A DNA stretch of 7,232 nucleotides. Source: Sulfurimonas sp. (lineage in GTDB: Bacteria > Campylobacterota > Campylobacteria > Campylobacterales > Sulfurimonadaceae). A model generated the notes under the pieces. That model saw only the letters and a list, made by a program, of their open reading frames with translations. It was not told the DNA's origin and did not search any database. Position numbers and translations under genes: made by a program. The stretch is taken from assembly GCA_022712775.1 (NCBI GenBank), contig JAFLJZ010000279.1, forward strand, positions 1 to 7,232. Reading direction: 5' to 3'. Below, in pieces: positions 366 through 7,232 of this stretch (position 1 is the stretch's first letter; every line of letters begins with the position of its first letter).

Positions 366-1025
366 CTATTTTTTACTGTTTAGTCTAGATTGGTACTCTT
401 CACCATGTTTACAAACTGGGCATTTTTTAAGTGCTTTTTTTCCATAATGGACATGACCACATACTTCACAAATCCATGCTTCTTCTTCATCCTCACTTAC
501 ATGTTCTGCATCAGCTTCTAATCTATTTAAAAGCATCTGGAACATTTTTTCATGTTCTACTTCTATTTTACCTATTCCTGTAAAAAGTTTTTCTGCTTCT
601 TTGTGCCCCTCTTCTTTTGCAATAGCAGCAAAATCAGGATACATAGTTACATTTTCATAACTTTCACCATCTATCGCCATTTGAAGATTCTCTTTTGTAT
701 TTCTAAAACTATCTTCACCCCCACTTGCCATTCTATTATTTAAAGCAAGTTCCATCTTTGCATGCTGTTTTTCATTATTAGCAGCTCTAGCAAAATGTTC
801 AGCAATGTCTCTATAACCTTCTTTTTGTGCTACTTTTGCAAAATACTCATATTTATTTCTTGCTTGTGATTCTCCAGCGAAAGATTTCATCAAGTTAACC
901 ATAGTTAAATTTTCTGTAGTCATCTCCATAGCTTGACCACAACAATGAAGTTCTCCGCCACCTACATTTTGAACTTCTACTTCGTTACCACATTTGTTAC
1001 ATTTATAAGTTTCATACTGTCTCAT
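366..1025 (-). CDS. rrc: Desulforubrerythrin: desulforedoxin-like domain + diiron rubrerythrin domain + rubredoxin domain
   Basis: A 219-residue non-haem iron protein, expected to reduce hydrogen peroxide to water in the cytoplasm. Three domains are visible. Residues 1-36 carry a desulforedoxin-type iron site (C9, C12 and the adjacent pair C28-C29, in CNKCG and HCCGQAM). Residues about 40-172 form the four-helix rubrerythrin domain, with likely diiron ligands E52, E85, H88, E121, E124, E155 and H158; the two E-x-x-H motifs are NEKQH and EVEH. Residues 184-206 form a rubredoxin-like Fe(Cys)4 site (C186, C189, C202, C205). The same arrangement is known from Campylobacter jejuni desulforubrerythrin, the source of the symbol. 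A ribosome binding site AAGGA lies at 1037-1033, 7 nt before the ATG. The gene is divergent from the perR-like regulator and has a Fur/PerR-type palindrome over its -35 region, so peroxide-responsive control is likely. Confidence 0.93.
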   Translation of the reverse strand: MRQYETYKCNKCGNEVEVQNVGGGELHCCGQAMEMTTENLTMVNLMKSFAGESQARNKYEYFAKVAQKEGYRDIAEHFARAANNEKQHAKMELALNNRMASGGEDSFRNTKENLQMAIDGESYENVTMYPDFAAIAKEEGHKEAEKLFTGIGKIEVEHEKMFQMLLNRLEADAEHVSEDEEEAWICEVCGHVHYGKKALKKCPVCKHGEEYQSRLNSKK

Positions 1026-1052: not shown

Positions 1053-1081
1053 ATTATACTCCTATATAACTTAAAGGATAA
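1053..1081 (-). promoter_or_regulatory. Promoter of the desulforubrerythrin gene
   Basis: On the minus strand a perfect TATAAT lies at 1058-1053, and TTATCC occupies the -35 position (1081-1076) with exactly 17 nt between them. The start point would fall near 1046, giving a leader of about 20 nt that contains the AAGGA ribosome binding site. The -35 element is the inner part of the palindrome at 1072-1094, so a bound regulator would block it. This is inferred from sequence only. Confidence 0.6.
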
Positions 1082-1094
1082 TTATTATCCTTTA
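1072..1094. promoter_or_regulatory. Fur/PerR-type operator, box 1 (perfect 11-1-11 palindrome)
   Basis: The two 11-base arms, TAAAGGATAAT and ATTATCCTTTA, are exact reverse complements around one central T. The core GGATAATTATTATCC (1076-1090) has the 7-1-7 layout of Fur-family boxes: Bacillus PerR TTATAATnATTATAA and Fur TGATAATnATTATCA. It covers the -35 region of the desulforubrerythrin promoter. The Fur-family gene lies immediately across the intergenic region, making its product the obvious candidate binder. Confidence 0.75.
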
Positions 1095-1117
1095 GTACTT
1101 TATAGTTTTATTAAATA

Positions 1118-1140
1118 TAAATAATAATTTTTATCCTTTA
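1118..1140. promoter_or_regulatory. Fur/PerR-type operator, box 2 (near copy of box 1)
   Basis: This 23-base stretch matches box 1 at 20 of 23 positions. The differences are in the left arm (GG replaced by TA) and at one base beside the centre. It starts 46 bp after box 1. Its TTATCC (1131-1136) lies exactly 17 nt before the TATAAT of the perR-like gene, so it would cover that promoter's -35. This suggests autoregulation. The degenerate left arm may mean weaker binding than box 1. Confidence 0.6.
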
Positions 1141-1159
1141 TTCCTAGTTAGTGTATAAT
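1131..1159 (+). promoter_or_regulatory. Promoter of the perR-like gene; transcript probably leaderless
   Basis: TATAAT at 1154-1159 is a perfect -10, with TTATCC at 1131-1136 in the -35 position (17-nt spacer). The ATG at 1166 begins 7 nt after the last base of the -10, which is where transcription normally starts, and no ribosome binding site can be seen before it. An mRNA beginning at or within a base or two of the ATG is therefore likely. Confidence 0.55.
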
Positions 1160-1165
1160 GTCATT

Positions 1166-1567
1166 ATGATTAATTATACAACTATACTAAGAGAACATAA
1201 TTTAAAAGCTACTCCTCAAAGATTAGCAATTACAGATATACTATATATAAATGGGCACATTAATGTAGAATCACTTTATCAGATGATGATAAAAAAGTTT
1301 AATTCTATCTCTCTCGCTACTATATATAAGAACGTAAACCTTATGCTAGAAAACTCTTTCATACAAGAGGTAAAGCTTCCCAATGCAAAACCTGTCTATG
1401 AACTAACAAAAGAAACACATTCTCATTTAGTATGTAAAAAGTGTGATTCTGTAAAAGACATTACTATAAACCTAGAAAGTGTTATCGCAGATATATCACA
1501 ATCAAGTACTTTTAAAATTACCTCAACTGACCTAGTTTTATCTGGTCTTTGTAAAAACTGTAAGTAA
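1166..1567 (+). CDS. perR: Fur-family transcriptional regulator, PerR-like
   Basis: A 133-residue DNA-binding metalloregulator, expected to repress peroxide-defence genes until its metal site is oxidised. Residues about 13-70 form the winged helix, with LKATPQR and the recognition region SLATIYKNV. Two CxxC pairs, C90/C93 and C129/C132, would hold the structural zinc. H31, E79, H85, H87 and D98 align by eye with the regulatory metal ligands of Bacillus PerR (H37, D85, H91, H93, D104). The Asp at the last position favours PerR over Fur, while Glu replaces Asp at the second. I chose ATG 1166 rather than the upstream GTG at 1151, because the GTG lies in front of the -10 and could not be in the transcript. 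It is divergent from desulforubrerythrin and upstream of the peroxiredoxin gene, and all three have matching operators. The family call is firm; PerR rather than Fur is likely, not proven. Confidence 0.88.
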   Translation: MINYTTILREHNLKATPQRLAITDILYINGHINVESLYQMMIKKFNSISLATIYKNVNLMLENSFIQEVKLPNAKPVYELTKETHSHLVCKKCDSVKDITINLESVIADISQSSTFKITSTDLVLSGLCKNCK

Positions 1568-1576
1568 AAGACGGGG

Positions 1577-1591
1577 TCCCCCTTGAGGGGA
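1577..1591 (+). terminator. GC-rich hairpin after perR, touching box 3
   Basis: TCCCC and GGGGA pair around the loop CTTGA, ten bases after the perR stop codon; GGGG at 1573-1576 could compete for the same C run. It is the most GC-rich spot in the area and is well placed to stop or pause perR transcription. No T-run follows, so it is not a classic intrinsic terminator. Its last three bases, GGA, are also the first bases of operator box 3. Confidence 0.35.
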
Positions 1592-1603
1592 TAAAAATTA
1601 TCC
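1589..1603. promoter_or_regulatory. Fur/PerR-type operator, box 3, upstream of peroxiredoxin
   Basis: GGATAAAAATTATCC matches the box 1 core at 13 of 15 positions and keeps the 7-1-7 layout with one arm mismatch. It lies 89 bp before the peroxiredoxin ATG. A weak -10 such as TATATC (1623-1628) sits 19 nt after its TTATCC half-site, but this promoter is less convincing than the other two. Confidence 0.55.
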
Positions 1604-1692
1604 TTAAATAAAATTACTACTTTATATCTACTAAGAATTTATTAATTATTTTTAGTTAAACTTCTTCCAAATTAATCCAAAGGACATATTAT

Positions 1693-2289
1693 ATGTTAGT
1701 AACAAATCAAGCTCCAGACTTCACAGCAACAACAGTTTTAGGTGACGGTTCAATCGTTGACGACTTTAAATTATCAGAAAACATGGGTGAGAAAGGTACA
1801 GTTTTATTCTTTTATCCACTAGATTTCACTTTTGTATGTCCTTCAGAGCTAATCGCTTTTGATCACAGACTTAAAGATTTTAAAGATCGTGGTGTTAATG
1901 TTATTGGTTGTTCAGTAGATAGTCAATTTTCTCACTTTGCATGGAGAGAAACACCAATCAACGAAGGTGGAATCGGGCGTGTTGGTTATCCTCTAGTAGC
2001 TGACCTTACAAAACAAATCTCTAAAGATTATGATGTACTTTTTGGTGGAGCAGTAGCTTTACGTGGTTCGTTTTTAATTGATGCTAAAGGTGTTGTTCGT
2101 CACGCTGTAGTTAATGATTTACCACTTGGTCGTAACATTGATGAAATGTTAAGAATGGTAGATACTATGCAGTTTACTGATGAGCACGGTGAAGTTTGTC
2201 CTGCTGGTTGGGTAAAAGGTGACGAAGGTATGAAAGCAACAACTGAAGGTGTAGCTGAATATCTTGGTAAGCATGAGGGTGATTTATAG
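1693..2289 (+). CDS. ahpC: Typical 2-Cys peroxiredoxin (AhpC/TSA, Prx1 type)
   Basis: A 198-residue cytoplasmic thiol peroxidase that reduces hydrogen peroxide, organic peroxides and peroxynitrite, usually recycled by thioredoxin in Campylobacterota. The active site is PLDFTFVCP, with P42, T46 and peroxidatic C49; R124 in ALRGSF completes the conserved set. The resolving cysteine is C169 in EVCPAGW, as in dimeric 2-Cys enzymes. A GGIG motif at 92-95 corresponds to the GGLG of peroxiredoxins prone to overoxidation, but the matching C-terminal YF motif is not present (AEYLGKH instead), so sensitivity cannot be predicted. Length is normal. AAAGGA at 1679-1684, 8 nt before the ATG, is the ribosome binding site. 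The gene follows perR in the same direction, has operator box 3 upstream, and ends before a hairpin. Relatives are called tsaA or ahpC. Confidence 0.95.
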   Translation: MLVTNQAPDFTATTVLGDGSIVDDFKLSENMGEKGTVLFFYPLDFTFVCPSELIAFDHRLKDFKDRGVNVIGCSVDSQFSHFAWRETPINEGGIGRVGYPLVADLTKQISKDYDVLFGGAVALRGSFLIDAKGVVRHAVVNDLPLGRNIDEMLRMVDTMQFTDEHGEVCPAGWVKGDEGMKATTEGVAEYLGKHEGDL

Positions 2290-3494: not shown

Positions 3495-4205
3495 ATGAAT
3501 ACAAAAAGAAACAAAGATGAAATAAGAGCTGGTAAGTATTTACAAACACTTAACTTTACTGAAGTGAAGTATGAACCACTAGGTAATGTAACCCCTGACT
3601 TTCTTCTTGATAAAACAGTAGCTGTTGAAGTTAGACGAATTAATAATAATTATATAGATGGTGATAATCTTCTTAGTATAGAAAACTTAGAAATTCCACT
3701 TATTAAAAATATCAAAAAAGTTATTGACAATTATTTTTATAGTTCACATGCAAATTCCGCATATATTTCAATTAATTTTCTAAAACAAATTACTATCCAA
3801 ACGAAAAAAAATATTATAAAAAAGGTAAAAAAACTTCTTAAAAAACATAGCCGTTGTATTAACGAAGATAAAATTTATAAAATTGCTCAACTACTTGAGA
3901 TAACATTTACTCCAACTGATAAAAAATCTAACATCTATATCTATACTGGTTGTAATGGTGATGTACTCTGGCTTGTTCATCAATTACATCAAAATATTCA
4001 ATTGGTTATTGAAGAAAAAAATAAGAAGATTGAAAAAAACTTTCATCTTTATAATGAGTGGTGGTTAGTTTTAGTAGATTCTATAATCTACGGTTTAGAT
4101 AGTGAAGACTTTAAAGAGCTAAAAAAAATCAAATTTAATAAACAAAAATTTACAAAAGTTATCATACTCTCACCCAAGGGTAATTTTAAAACCTTTGAAA
4201 TTTAA
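3495..4205 (+). CDS. Protein of unknown function with a PD-(D/E)XK-nuclease-like motif
   Basis: I do not recognise a named gene. The 236-residue product is lysine- and asparagine-rich, with no signal peptide or membrane segment. Near the N-terminus GNVTPDFLLDKTVAVEVRRI has a Pro-Asp (34-35) followed after nine residues by E45-V-R47 on a predicted strand. This resembles the core of PD-(D/E)XK nucleases, except that Arg stands where the catalytic Lys usually is. I recall similar PDF...AVEVRRLN stretches in uncharacterised bacterial proteins, but cannot check this. Residues 100-120 are a very basic helix (KKNIIKKVKKLLKKH), and 187-197 (NEWWLVLVDSI) is a hydrophobic strand with a Trp pair. The ribosome binding site is weak: the nearest AGG is 14 nt before the ATG. 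The gene converges on upp with 2 nt between stop codons and is more AT-rich than its neighbours, which could mean acquisition. Function is unproven. Confidence 0.7.
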   Translation: MNTKRNKDEIRAGKYLQTLNFTEVKYEPLGNVTPDFLLDKTVAVEVRRINNNYIDGDNLLSIENLEIPLIKNIKKVIDNYFYSSHANSAYISINFLKQITIQTKKNIIKKVKKLLKKHSRCINEDKIYKIAQLLEITFTPTDKKSNIYIYTGCNGDVLWLVHQLHQNIQLVIEEKNKKIEKNFHLYNEWWLVLVDSIIYGLDSEDFKELKKIKFNKQKFTKVIILSPKGNFKTFEI

Positions 4206-5586: not shown

Positions 5587-6438
5587 TTACTCCTTAATTG
5601 GTTTAACACTCAAAACAAGACCAGAGAGTTCAATAACTTCAACTCTTTGACCAACATTTAACTTATTTTGACTTATTGTACTCCATGTTTCACCATGACA
5701 ATGAACAAGGTAACCTTTCTCATTTGATTCTATCACCTCAGCAGTACTCCCAATCATTTCTTCTATCCCTGTAACAACTTTTCCATTACGTGCATTTATA
5801 AAAAGTTTCATCACTAAGATAAAAAATGAAAGACTTACTAAAGTAAAGGCTATGATTAATGGGATTGATACACTGCTACCTAAAGTATCTGCATCAAAGA
5901 GTAAAAATGAACCAAAAGAAAAAGCAATAACACCTCCAATTCCGAGTATTCCAAATCCAGAGATAAAAACCTCTGCAATCATAAAAGATACACCCAATAA
6001 TATTAGCAATAATCCTGCATAATTAAAAGGAATCATATTTAAAGCGTAAAGAGCTATCACACCAGCAATTACACCGATAACACCAGGGACTATTGCACCT
6101 GGATTCATCAACTCAAAAAATATACCATACATAGCTATAAGTAAAAATATATACGCGATATTTGGGTTCGTGATTATAGATAAAATACGTGTTTTGAAAT
6201 TAGCATCATAGTTTAATATCACAGCCTCATTTGTATTAAGCGTGATGTTTTTGTCCAAAATTTTCACACTTCTTCCATCTAACTTCTTTAAAAGCGCCTC
6301 AGTATCATCAGCCATTAAATCAATAACACCAGACTTTAAAGCATCTCTAGCAGATAGACTTTTTCCCTCTTTAACAGCTTCTATAGCCCAAGAAGCATTG
6401 CGGTCATTTAACTGTGCTAAACTTTTTATATACGCCAT
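5587..6438 (-). CDS. C-terminal fragment of NfeD (end of protease domain, membrane helices, OB-fold)
   Basis: This is a 283-codon open stretch if translation restarts at the ATG at 6438-6436, 48 nt after the internal stop. It contains AYIKSLAQLNDRNASWA, then four or five membrane helices between about residues 80 and 215, and the C-terminal OB-fold NfeD domain (220-283). The ATG is an ordinary internal methionine of the NfeD family, and I see no good ribosome binding site before it; GAGAAAAAAG is about 15 nt away. Independent expression is therefore doubtful. If made, it could still contact the slipin through the OB-fold, but it has no nucleophile and starts after the predicted catalytic Lys. 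Confidence 0.5.
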   Translation of the reverse strand: MAYIKSLAQLNDRNASWAIEAVKEGKSLSARDALKSGVIDLMADDTEALLKKLDGRSVKILDKNITLNTNEAVILNYDANFKTRILSIITNPNIAYIFLLIAMYGIFFELMNPGAIVPGVIGVIAGVIALYALNMIPFNYAGLLLILLGVSFMIAEVFISGFGILGIGGVIAFSFGSFLLFDADTLGSSVSIPLIIAFTLVSLSFFILVMKLFINARNGKVVTGIEEMIGSTAEVIESNEKGYLVHCHGETWSTISQNKLNVGQRVEVIELSGLVLSVKPIKE

Positions 6439-6486: not shown

Positions 6487-6876
6487 TTAATCTTTACTCT
6501 TTGGCATTATACTAACAGGAGTAGCTGCACCAAGGTTTGTTCCAGGTGCCATCGCAGCAACATGGGAGGCGTAAAGAAGATATGTTCCTGCACTAGCCGC
6601 TCTTGCACCTTTTGGTGATACATATGTTACCACTGGAATCGAACTATTGGTAATTTCTTGAATCATCTCACGCATAGAGGAAGAAAGACCTCCGGGAGTA
6701 TCAAGTTCAATTAAAATAATATTAGAATCTTTAAGTGTGGCGAATACTATACCCTCTTTAAGGTAGCTACTACTCGCAGGACCGATAGCCCCTCTTATCT
6801 CCAACTTGACAATCGTTGAAGTAGAAGAATAAAGAGGAAAAGCGAATAAAATAAATAAAAATAATAAATGTTTCAT
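6487..6876 (-). CDS. N-terminal fragment of NfeD (signal peptide and first part of the protease domain)
   Basis: This is the 129-residue product expected if the TAA is obeyed. It begins with a hydrophobic signal sequence (MKHLLFLFILFAFPLYSS), then IVKLEIRGAIGPASSSYL, the LDTPGGLSSSMREMI loop and the nucleophile segment ARAASAGTYLLYA (S95), and stops just after the conserved GTNLGAATP. It would be exported but lacks the predicted catalytic lysine and all membrane helices, so an active protease is unlikely. Confidence 0.55.
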   Translation of the reverse strand: MKHLLFLFILFAFPLYSSTSTIVKLEIRGAIGPASSSYLKEGIVFATLKDSNIILIELDTPGGLSSSMREMIQEITNSSIPVVTYVSPKGARAASAGTYLLYASHVAAMAPGTNLGAATPVSIMPKSKD

Positions 6877-7022: not shown

Positions 7023-7232
7023 GTTATAGCCCCCTTTCTCACTCGGATACGCTATACTTATCTTTCACATGGTAAGAACTATGCCTACGTTATAGCCCCC
7101 TTTCTCACTCGGATACGCTATACTCATCGTTGCTCGTAGAACAGCGGCAGCAGGGTTATAGCCCCCTTTCTCACTCGGATACGCTATACTAAAGGTGCGA
7201 TTGAGGGTTTTACTGCTTGGTTATAGCCCCCT
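7023..7232 (+). CRISPR. Start of a CRISPR array, 36-bp repeats, probably type II-C; continues past the window
   Basis: Three identical 36-bp repeats lie at 7023-7058, 7089-7124 and 7155-7190, and the first 13 bases of a fourth at 7220-7232. Spacers are 30, 30 and 29 bp (7059-7088, 7125-7154, 7191-7219) and unrelated to one another. The repeat begins GTTATAGCCCCC, has the core CCCTTTCTCAC, and ends GCTATACT; TATAGC near the start is the reverse complement of GCTATA near the end. Repeat and spacer lengths and the GTTnTAG start fit type II-C. From memory the repeat agrees with the Neisseria meningitidis repeat at about 25 of 36 positions. The last six bases, TATACT, form a -10-like element, as in Neisseria and Campylobacter arrays where each repeat carries a promoter. 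No cas gene or tracrRNA is visible here. Confidence 0.96.

Follow-up and report, generated by a model that had tools for sequence, protein, structure and literature searches.

The Bacillus per-box consensus, as given in the available portion of PMC545781, is TTATAATNATTATAA, and the same text uses comparative genomics to predict PerR operators ahead of perR, rbr and ahpC in delta-proteobacteria. On the protein side, the accessible part of PMC8638851 assigns the separation of PerR from Fur box recognition to residue 61 (Asn in PerR, Arg in Fur) and that of peroxide sensitivity to residue 104 (Asp versus Glu), and calls N61 canonical for PerR, from Bacillus. In Campylobacter jejuni, according to the excerpted texts of PMC4491227, PMC2772861 and PMC4518328, PerR controls katA, ahpC, rrc and its own gene; a MEME consensus was obtained in this species only for the iron-repressed targets of Fur, as far as the available text of PMC4491227 goes. 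For Sulfurimonas or Arcobacter, no account of such a box or regulon came up in the open-access literature, which leaves most subscription papers outside.

Here, we analysed a stretch of 7,232 nucleotides of a Sulfurimonas sp. contig (hereafter, the window), which contains three similar palindromes around a gene for a Fur-family regulator (Table 1). We consider it highly probable that these palindromes are operators of that regulator, a predicted PerR of a Sulfurimonas-like lineage that would repress peroxide genes. The boxes, their conservation and spacing, the genome-wide gene association and the PerR-type ligand set are read at the sequence level; from them we infer DNA binding, repression and its direction, the metal and the response to peroxide. 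The genes next to the palindromes had been named desulforubrerythrin, Fur-family regulator and peroxiredoxin in a first-pass annotation, with which the domain matches agree. The first combines a desulfoferrodoxin N-terminal domain with rubrerythrin and rubredoxin-like domains, the regulator matches the FUR domain with 91 bits (cut-off 23.1), and the best NCBIfam match of the third is peroxiredoxin C, with 290 bits, slightly under the cut-off of 301.

Table 1. Genes, predicted PerR boxes and candidate promoter elements in the window.
Feature	Position	Strand	Description or basis
desulforubrerythrin (rrc/drbr)	366-1025	-	PF06397, PF02915, PF21349 above cut-offs
candidate drbr -10	1053-1058	-	TATAAT, downstream of box 1; by eye
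box 1	1072-1094	.	predicted PerR box, perfect 11-1-11 palindrome TAAAGGATAATTATTATCCTTTA
second candidate drbr -10	1099-1104	-	TATAAA, between boxes 1 and 2; by eye
box 2	1118-1140	.	predicted PerR box, TAAATAATAATTTTTATCCTTTA, 46 bp from box 1
candidate perR -10	1154-1159	+	TATAAT, begins 12 nt before ATG; conservation
Fur-family regulator, PerR-type	1166-1567	+	133 aa; PF01475; alignments
box 3	1585-1607	.	predicted PerR box, GAGGGGATAAAAATTATCCTTAA; core 1589-1603
candidate prx -10	1657-1662	+	TAAACT, ~50 nt past the end of box 3; by eye, aligned upstream regions
2-Cys peroxiredoxin (AhpC/TSA), prx	1693-2289	+	PF00578, PF10417

Three other features of the window deserve mention. A CRISPR-like array at 7023-7232 has three repeat copies with identical first 36 nt and a 66-nt spacing, plus a truncated fourth repeat, recognised by reading, at the contig end; no cas genes were seen among the window ORFs with Pfam matches. 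An NfeD-like gene on the minus strand (5587-6438 and 6487-6876) appears to be split into two ORFs by a stop or frame change (a MAG error or a pseudogene). Finally, a 236-aa protein encoded at 3495-4205 has no Pfam or NCBIfam matches, and its relative in L003 appears as two tblastn pieces.

The core of box 1, GGATAATTATTATCC (1076-1090), lies within arms (1072-1082 and 1084-1094) that are 100% complementary, so that its earlier description as a perfect palindrome with 11-1-11 arms is correct. The repeat identities first reported were also recovered by our recount: box 2 differs from box 1 at 3 of 23 positions (20/23 identical), and the core of box 3 matches that of box 1 at 13 of 15 positions on the plus strand, or 14 of 15 when read on the minus strand. 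With up to three mismatches allowed, the core gave five strand-matches (at three places) in the window versus 0.59 expected, and none of 200 dinucleotide shuffles reached five. The 22-mer gave three strand-matches at two places, boxes 1 and 2, versus 0.00 expected.

The boxes before the regulator gene are conserved in position. We retained the best 80 of 181 related places. In 78 of them the sequence ahead of the regulator gene extends over at least 60 nt; among these 78, a box precedes the regulator with at least 12 of 14 matches in 34 loci and with at least 11 of 14 in 49, and in 37 the upstream box reached p<=0.01 against Markov shuffles. A divergent drbr is present in 13 Sulfurimonas-type loci up to L046. 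Ten of these have box 1 at -90 relative to the perR ATG, as in the window, and one more has it at -89; box 2 is at -44 in eleven, again as in the window, and at -43 in one more. The two boxes are 45-47 bp apart in 24 of the 35 loci that contain the pair, as compared with means of 1.1 pairs overall and 0.025 pairs at this spacing in a shuffle control of 40 rounds. In the Arcobacteraceae, the distance from box to perR is variable and that between boxes mostly constant. Since a TATAAT-like drbr -10 element is found, by eye, between the boxes in many relatives, the pair may bracket the drbr promoter. Before perR, a box with at least 11 of 14 matches is present in only 3 of the 25 loci L023-L047, and in most of these loci perR does not adjoin drbr. 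Identity to the regulator is 65-77% among the best 120 of its 776 relatives, self aside, and several of those that bear a name are Sulfurimonas.

This regular arrangement argues against the palindromes being terminators, UP elements or AT-rich low-complexity matches. The region is indeed very AT-rich and short inverted repeats are common there; nevertheless, shuffled sequences stay below the observed counts, no terminator-like site was found between 1000 and 1700, the spacing of the pair is maintained and, in other genomes, the sites are associated with particular classes of genes (see below), which makes a non-operator origin extremely improbable.

A sigma-70 scan retrieved two promoters versus 4.6 expected, which is not above chance, so that we argue for promoters from conservation and partly by eye. 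The regulator begins, by alignment, at the ATG at 1166, whereas the mechanical ORF list has the GTG at 1151; an in-frame GTG or TTG occurs 15 nt upstream of the perR ATG in many loci, including the window, and is out of frame in L013. Of 75 regions upstream of perR, that of the window among them, 49 have a TANAAT hexamer beginning 14 to 10 nt before the ATG, 47 times at -12. Shine-Dalgarno-like tetramers are present in none of these 49 regions and in 20 of the other 26. Four of the Sulfurimonas-type loci examined up to L047 deviate: L024, which has a Shine-Dalgarno-like sequence, and L041, L043 and L045, which have a TATACT-like hexamer instead. The simplest reading is that the perR mRNA is predicted to be leaderless, or nearly so, in most of the Sulfurimonas-type loci examined.

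The geometry of prx requires separate consideration. Its best -10 candidate, TAAAAT-like in relatives (alignment of prx upstream regions, by eye), lies so far from box 3, whose centre is ~60 nt upstream of it, that the box is beyond simple promoter occlusion and the control of prx may differ. Box 3 could thus be an activator site or serve another promoter, with prx controlled unlike drbr and perR. What speaks for such an arrangement is the long distance: of 16 prx upstream regions aligned, 14 have their best box 103-111 nt ahead of the start codon, with only 9 of 14 matches in one of these 14. However, the boxes of other regulon genes are mostly 20-100 nt ahead of the start, and up to 140 nt for KatG-type genes, and a conserved element immediately after box 3 may be another promoter. 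Overall, we see a different mode of control at prx as somewhat unlikely, and favor repression from box 3 as well.

The association of the box with genes was addressed by whole-genome scans. We trained a model, R1, on perR/drbr intergenic sites from relatives, leaving the window aside: 21 of 25 such sites were used, 20 of which were entered in both orientations to give 41 rows, and the promoters of prx, ahpC, catalase, ccp and Dps genes were absent from the training set. All regulon evidence comes from relatives of the window, which are non-independent samples, and the R1 E-values are rough because calibration was shortened. At E<=0.1, R1 detected 43 places in 12 genomes: 20 in perR/drbr intergenic regions, mostly the training sites, and 23 elsewhere. 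Twenty of these 23 precede genes for prx, ahpC, catalase (katA), di-haem cytochrome c peroxidase (ccp) or a separate drbr, as checked with Pfam on representatives; the remaining three correspond to a symporter-like and a leuA-like gene (both by reading) and to one contig edge. Between E 0.1 and 0.25, two of seven sites fit, both before superoxide reductase genes, and another is leuA-like. Among the 20 matches read at E 0.32-0.94 (leaving out G004:C87:4993, a training locus) only one precedes a peroxide-defence gene. The exact 23-mer occurs once outside the perR/drbr locus, before a second AhpC-type gene (L086). In eight genomes, the plain pattern with at most one mismatch has 11 places: eight belong to perR/drbr, prx or ahpC loci and three lie in or at other genes, whereas the reversed pattern has none.

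R1 was also run on further samples. In a genus sample of 60 genomes, five of which were also in the 12-genome scan, 39 had an R1 site at E<=0.02 and 21 had none at this threshold, where filters lose weak matches. We read all 38 regions with E<=0.01 in genomes new to the scan, dropping L244 and L249 as training loci and leaving a second L253 site uncounted. Of the resulting 37 non-training sites, 32 lie before oxidative-stress genes or perR, perR being counted: 28 were recognised by BLAST to reference enzymes or perR, two by PF00141 (KatG-type) and two by PF00210 (ferritin-like, Dps-family). The five misses are an ankyrin gene (L243) and, by reading, pckA-like (L250) and leuA-like (L266) genes, a TPP-enzyme-like gene with the site inside (L256) and a membrane-protein gene (L265). 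Six of eight Arcobacteraceae genomes had places, and 17 of the 21 places fit, perR/rubrerythrin loci included, the other genes being prx, ahpC, katA, KatG-type, Dps-type and rubrerythrin-family; the four misfits are two sites located within genes and one each at the genes of a chemotaxis protein and of an unknown protein. At E<=0.02, sites were found in 41 of 61 genomes of a larger Arcobacteraceae-family sample and in 20 of 61 of a class sample. Ten new loci of the latter comprise five sites before catalase, ccp, Dps-like (two) and superoxide dismutase genes (by reading), two before cysteine-desulfurase-like genes and three misfits, with L279 perhaps misplaced.

Some loci of these samples are of interest by themselves. 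In L229, L230, L234 and L258, a PerR-like protein (45-52% identity) is encoded divergently from a ccp gene, with the same box between them. A box-like site precedes a leuA-like gene in L120, L127 and L266 (E 0.01-0.19), with a glnA-like neighbour in two of them. The record of L066, titled Helicobacter pylori PMSS1 MAG, has an Arcobacteraceae-like perR/rubrerythrin/prx locus and is possibly mislabelled.

The first-pass annotation had suggested scanning related genomes with a matrix of the motif and had proposed that this may be the native PerR box of the lineage. With R1, 20 of 23 and 32 of 37 non-training sites fell at expected genes and not at random places, and the association drops to 1 of 20 at low scores. 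This gene association supports the proposal: TAAARGATAAT-N-ATTATCYTTTA is very probably the native PerR operator of the lineage, as predicted from sequence comparison, and its regulon extends beyond the genes of the window. In relatives, the regulon is not compact, since the sites are spread over the genome.

The operator is 23 bp long, with conserved TAAA/TTTA arms and G or A as the outer base of the 7-mer. Leaving the perR/drbr training locus aside, 59 regulon sites give a half-site that reads TAAA, then G (0.58) or A (0.39), then GATAAT, with G at +-6 in 98%, a composition biased by the selection of the sites with R1. The Bacillus-type box is not the spelling of these sites, the half-site being TAAARGATAAT instead. 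The GG...CC flanks had been presented as the difference from Bacillus; the difference is real, but G is not strict, since the left half of box 2 is TAATAAT, without GG, and the outer base can be G or A.

How far this box differs from that of Fur is a more delicate question, as the iron regulator Fur, and not the adjacent PerR-like protein, might control these genes, or both might share the sites. The PerR box and the Fur-type pattern of the same genomes, TGATAATNATTATCA, have the core GATAAT-N-ATTATC in common and differ by one base per half-site: the outer base is T in the Fur-type pattern and a purine in the PerR box, whereas TAAA arms are not clear in the former. This pattern was chosen by us, so the T at the outer position is circular, and it is weakly defined: with at most one mismatch it has 60 places in 12 genomes versus 32 for the reversed control, approximately twofold. 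In addition, as far as the available texts of PMC4491227 and PMC4518328 indicate, C. jejuni Fur acts on katA and rrc too, and metal-free Fur binds rrc. Nevertheless, in five of five genomes examined a Fur (with Arg and Glu at positions 61 and 104) coexists with a separate PerR-type protein (with Lys and Asp), and the box follows perR and peroxide genes. Out of 18 Fur-pattern loci read, none has a peroxide gene behind the site; eight are inside genes, and four of the other ten lie, by reading, before iron-uptake-like genes (feoA-like, Fe-ABC-like, PepSY-like and TonB-like), the remainder having other genes or none behind the site. Control by Fur hence appears quite improbable, and we retain PerR as the predicted regulator. 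The outer base of the 7-mer, together with the TAAA arms, seems to distinguish PerR sites from Fur sites, with weak support on the Fur side.

The regulator itself was compared by alignment. H31, E79, H85, H87 and D98 are invariant in an alignment of the window protein with 17 relatives (18 sequences), as are C90, C93, C129 and C132 of the Cys4 zinc site. Aligned to B. subtilis PerR, they correspond to H37, the D85 position, H91, H93, D104 and the Cys4 site; among the regulatory ligands H37, D85, H91 and H93, the three histidines are kept and the D85 position is occupied by Glu. The best of ten NCBIfam families matched was NF052545 (TransRegPerRClab), with 94 bits, below its cut-off of 180. The residue at the N61/R61 position is Lys (K55), neither the Asn of PerR nor the Arg of Fur. 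Lys is likewise found at this position in 6dk4, the solved chain closest to the regulator, which bears the name ferric uptake regulation protein and which we take to be C. jejuni PerR, so we do not treat N61 as defining outside Bacillus-type PerR.

We also considered that Lys might generally read GG-type boxes, a rule that we dropped. From 30 class-sample perR loci given, 29 were parsed, five of them Arg-type and 24 PerR-type (YKN) with Lys, at least one start (L187) being misplaced; none of these 24 has a GG-type box with at least 12 of 14 matches within 300 nt of perR. Lys alone therefore does not dictate the spelling of the box: on this comparative basis, it is compatible with a GG-type box and not sufficient to set its spelling.

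We envisage the following mechanism. Between the divergent drbr and perR genes, boxes 1 and 2 would be occupied by metal-loaded PerR dimers, which would likewise bind box 3 upstream of prx, keeping drbr, perR and prx low, with perR self-repressed. In relatives, PerR would also hold down ahpC, katA, katG and the genes for cytochrome c peroxidase, Dps-like proteins and superoxide reductase. Peroxide would then oxidise the Fe site of PerR and release the repressed genes. More speculatively, and with somewhat less than even confidence, Sulfurimonas and Arcobacteraceae might use a third PerR/Fur recognition code, in which a Lys-61-type PerR would recognise a 23-bp 11-1-11 operator, a purine outer base and TAAA/TTTA arms would separate it from Fur, two dimers would sit 46 bp apart over drbr/perR, and perR mRNA would be leaderless in Sulfurimonas. 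These predictions define a PerR operator and regulon that can be tested across a large group of environmental Campylobacterota, and they include a leaderless perR mRNA for most Sulfurimonas. They also suggest that one cell separates PerR from Fur via a single outer base per half-site, and the residue-61 rule finds a natural test case in the Lys at this position.

Compared with known systems, the site very probably represents a familiar type of switch that is spelled in a lineage-specific way. The B. subtilis per box and the Sulfurimonas box have the 7-1-7 layout in common, but the half-site is TTATAAT in the former and RGATAAT with TAAA arms in the latter. Similarly, the window regulator shares with B. 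subtilis PerR the Fur fold, the H37, H91, H93 and D104 positions and the Cys4 site, and has Lys and Glu in place of N61 and D85. The chain 6dk4 resembles it by its Lys at the N61 position and differs by Asp at the D85 position, where the window regulator has Glu. Some of the delta-proteobacterial PerR operators listed in the available portion of PMC545781 contain GG..CC (AATAGGAATCGTTCCTGTT) like those of Sulfurimonas, although their core differs (GGAAT..). Finally, the targets described for C. jejuni PerR in the sources available to us (katA, ahpC, rrc and perR autoregulation) are of the same types as those of the regulon predicted in Sulfurimonas.
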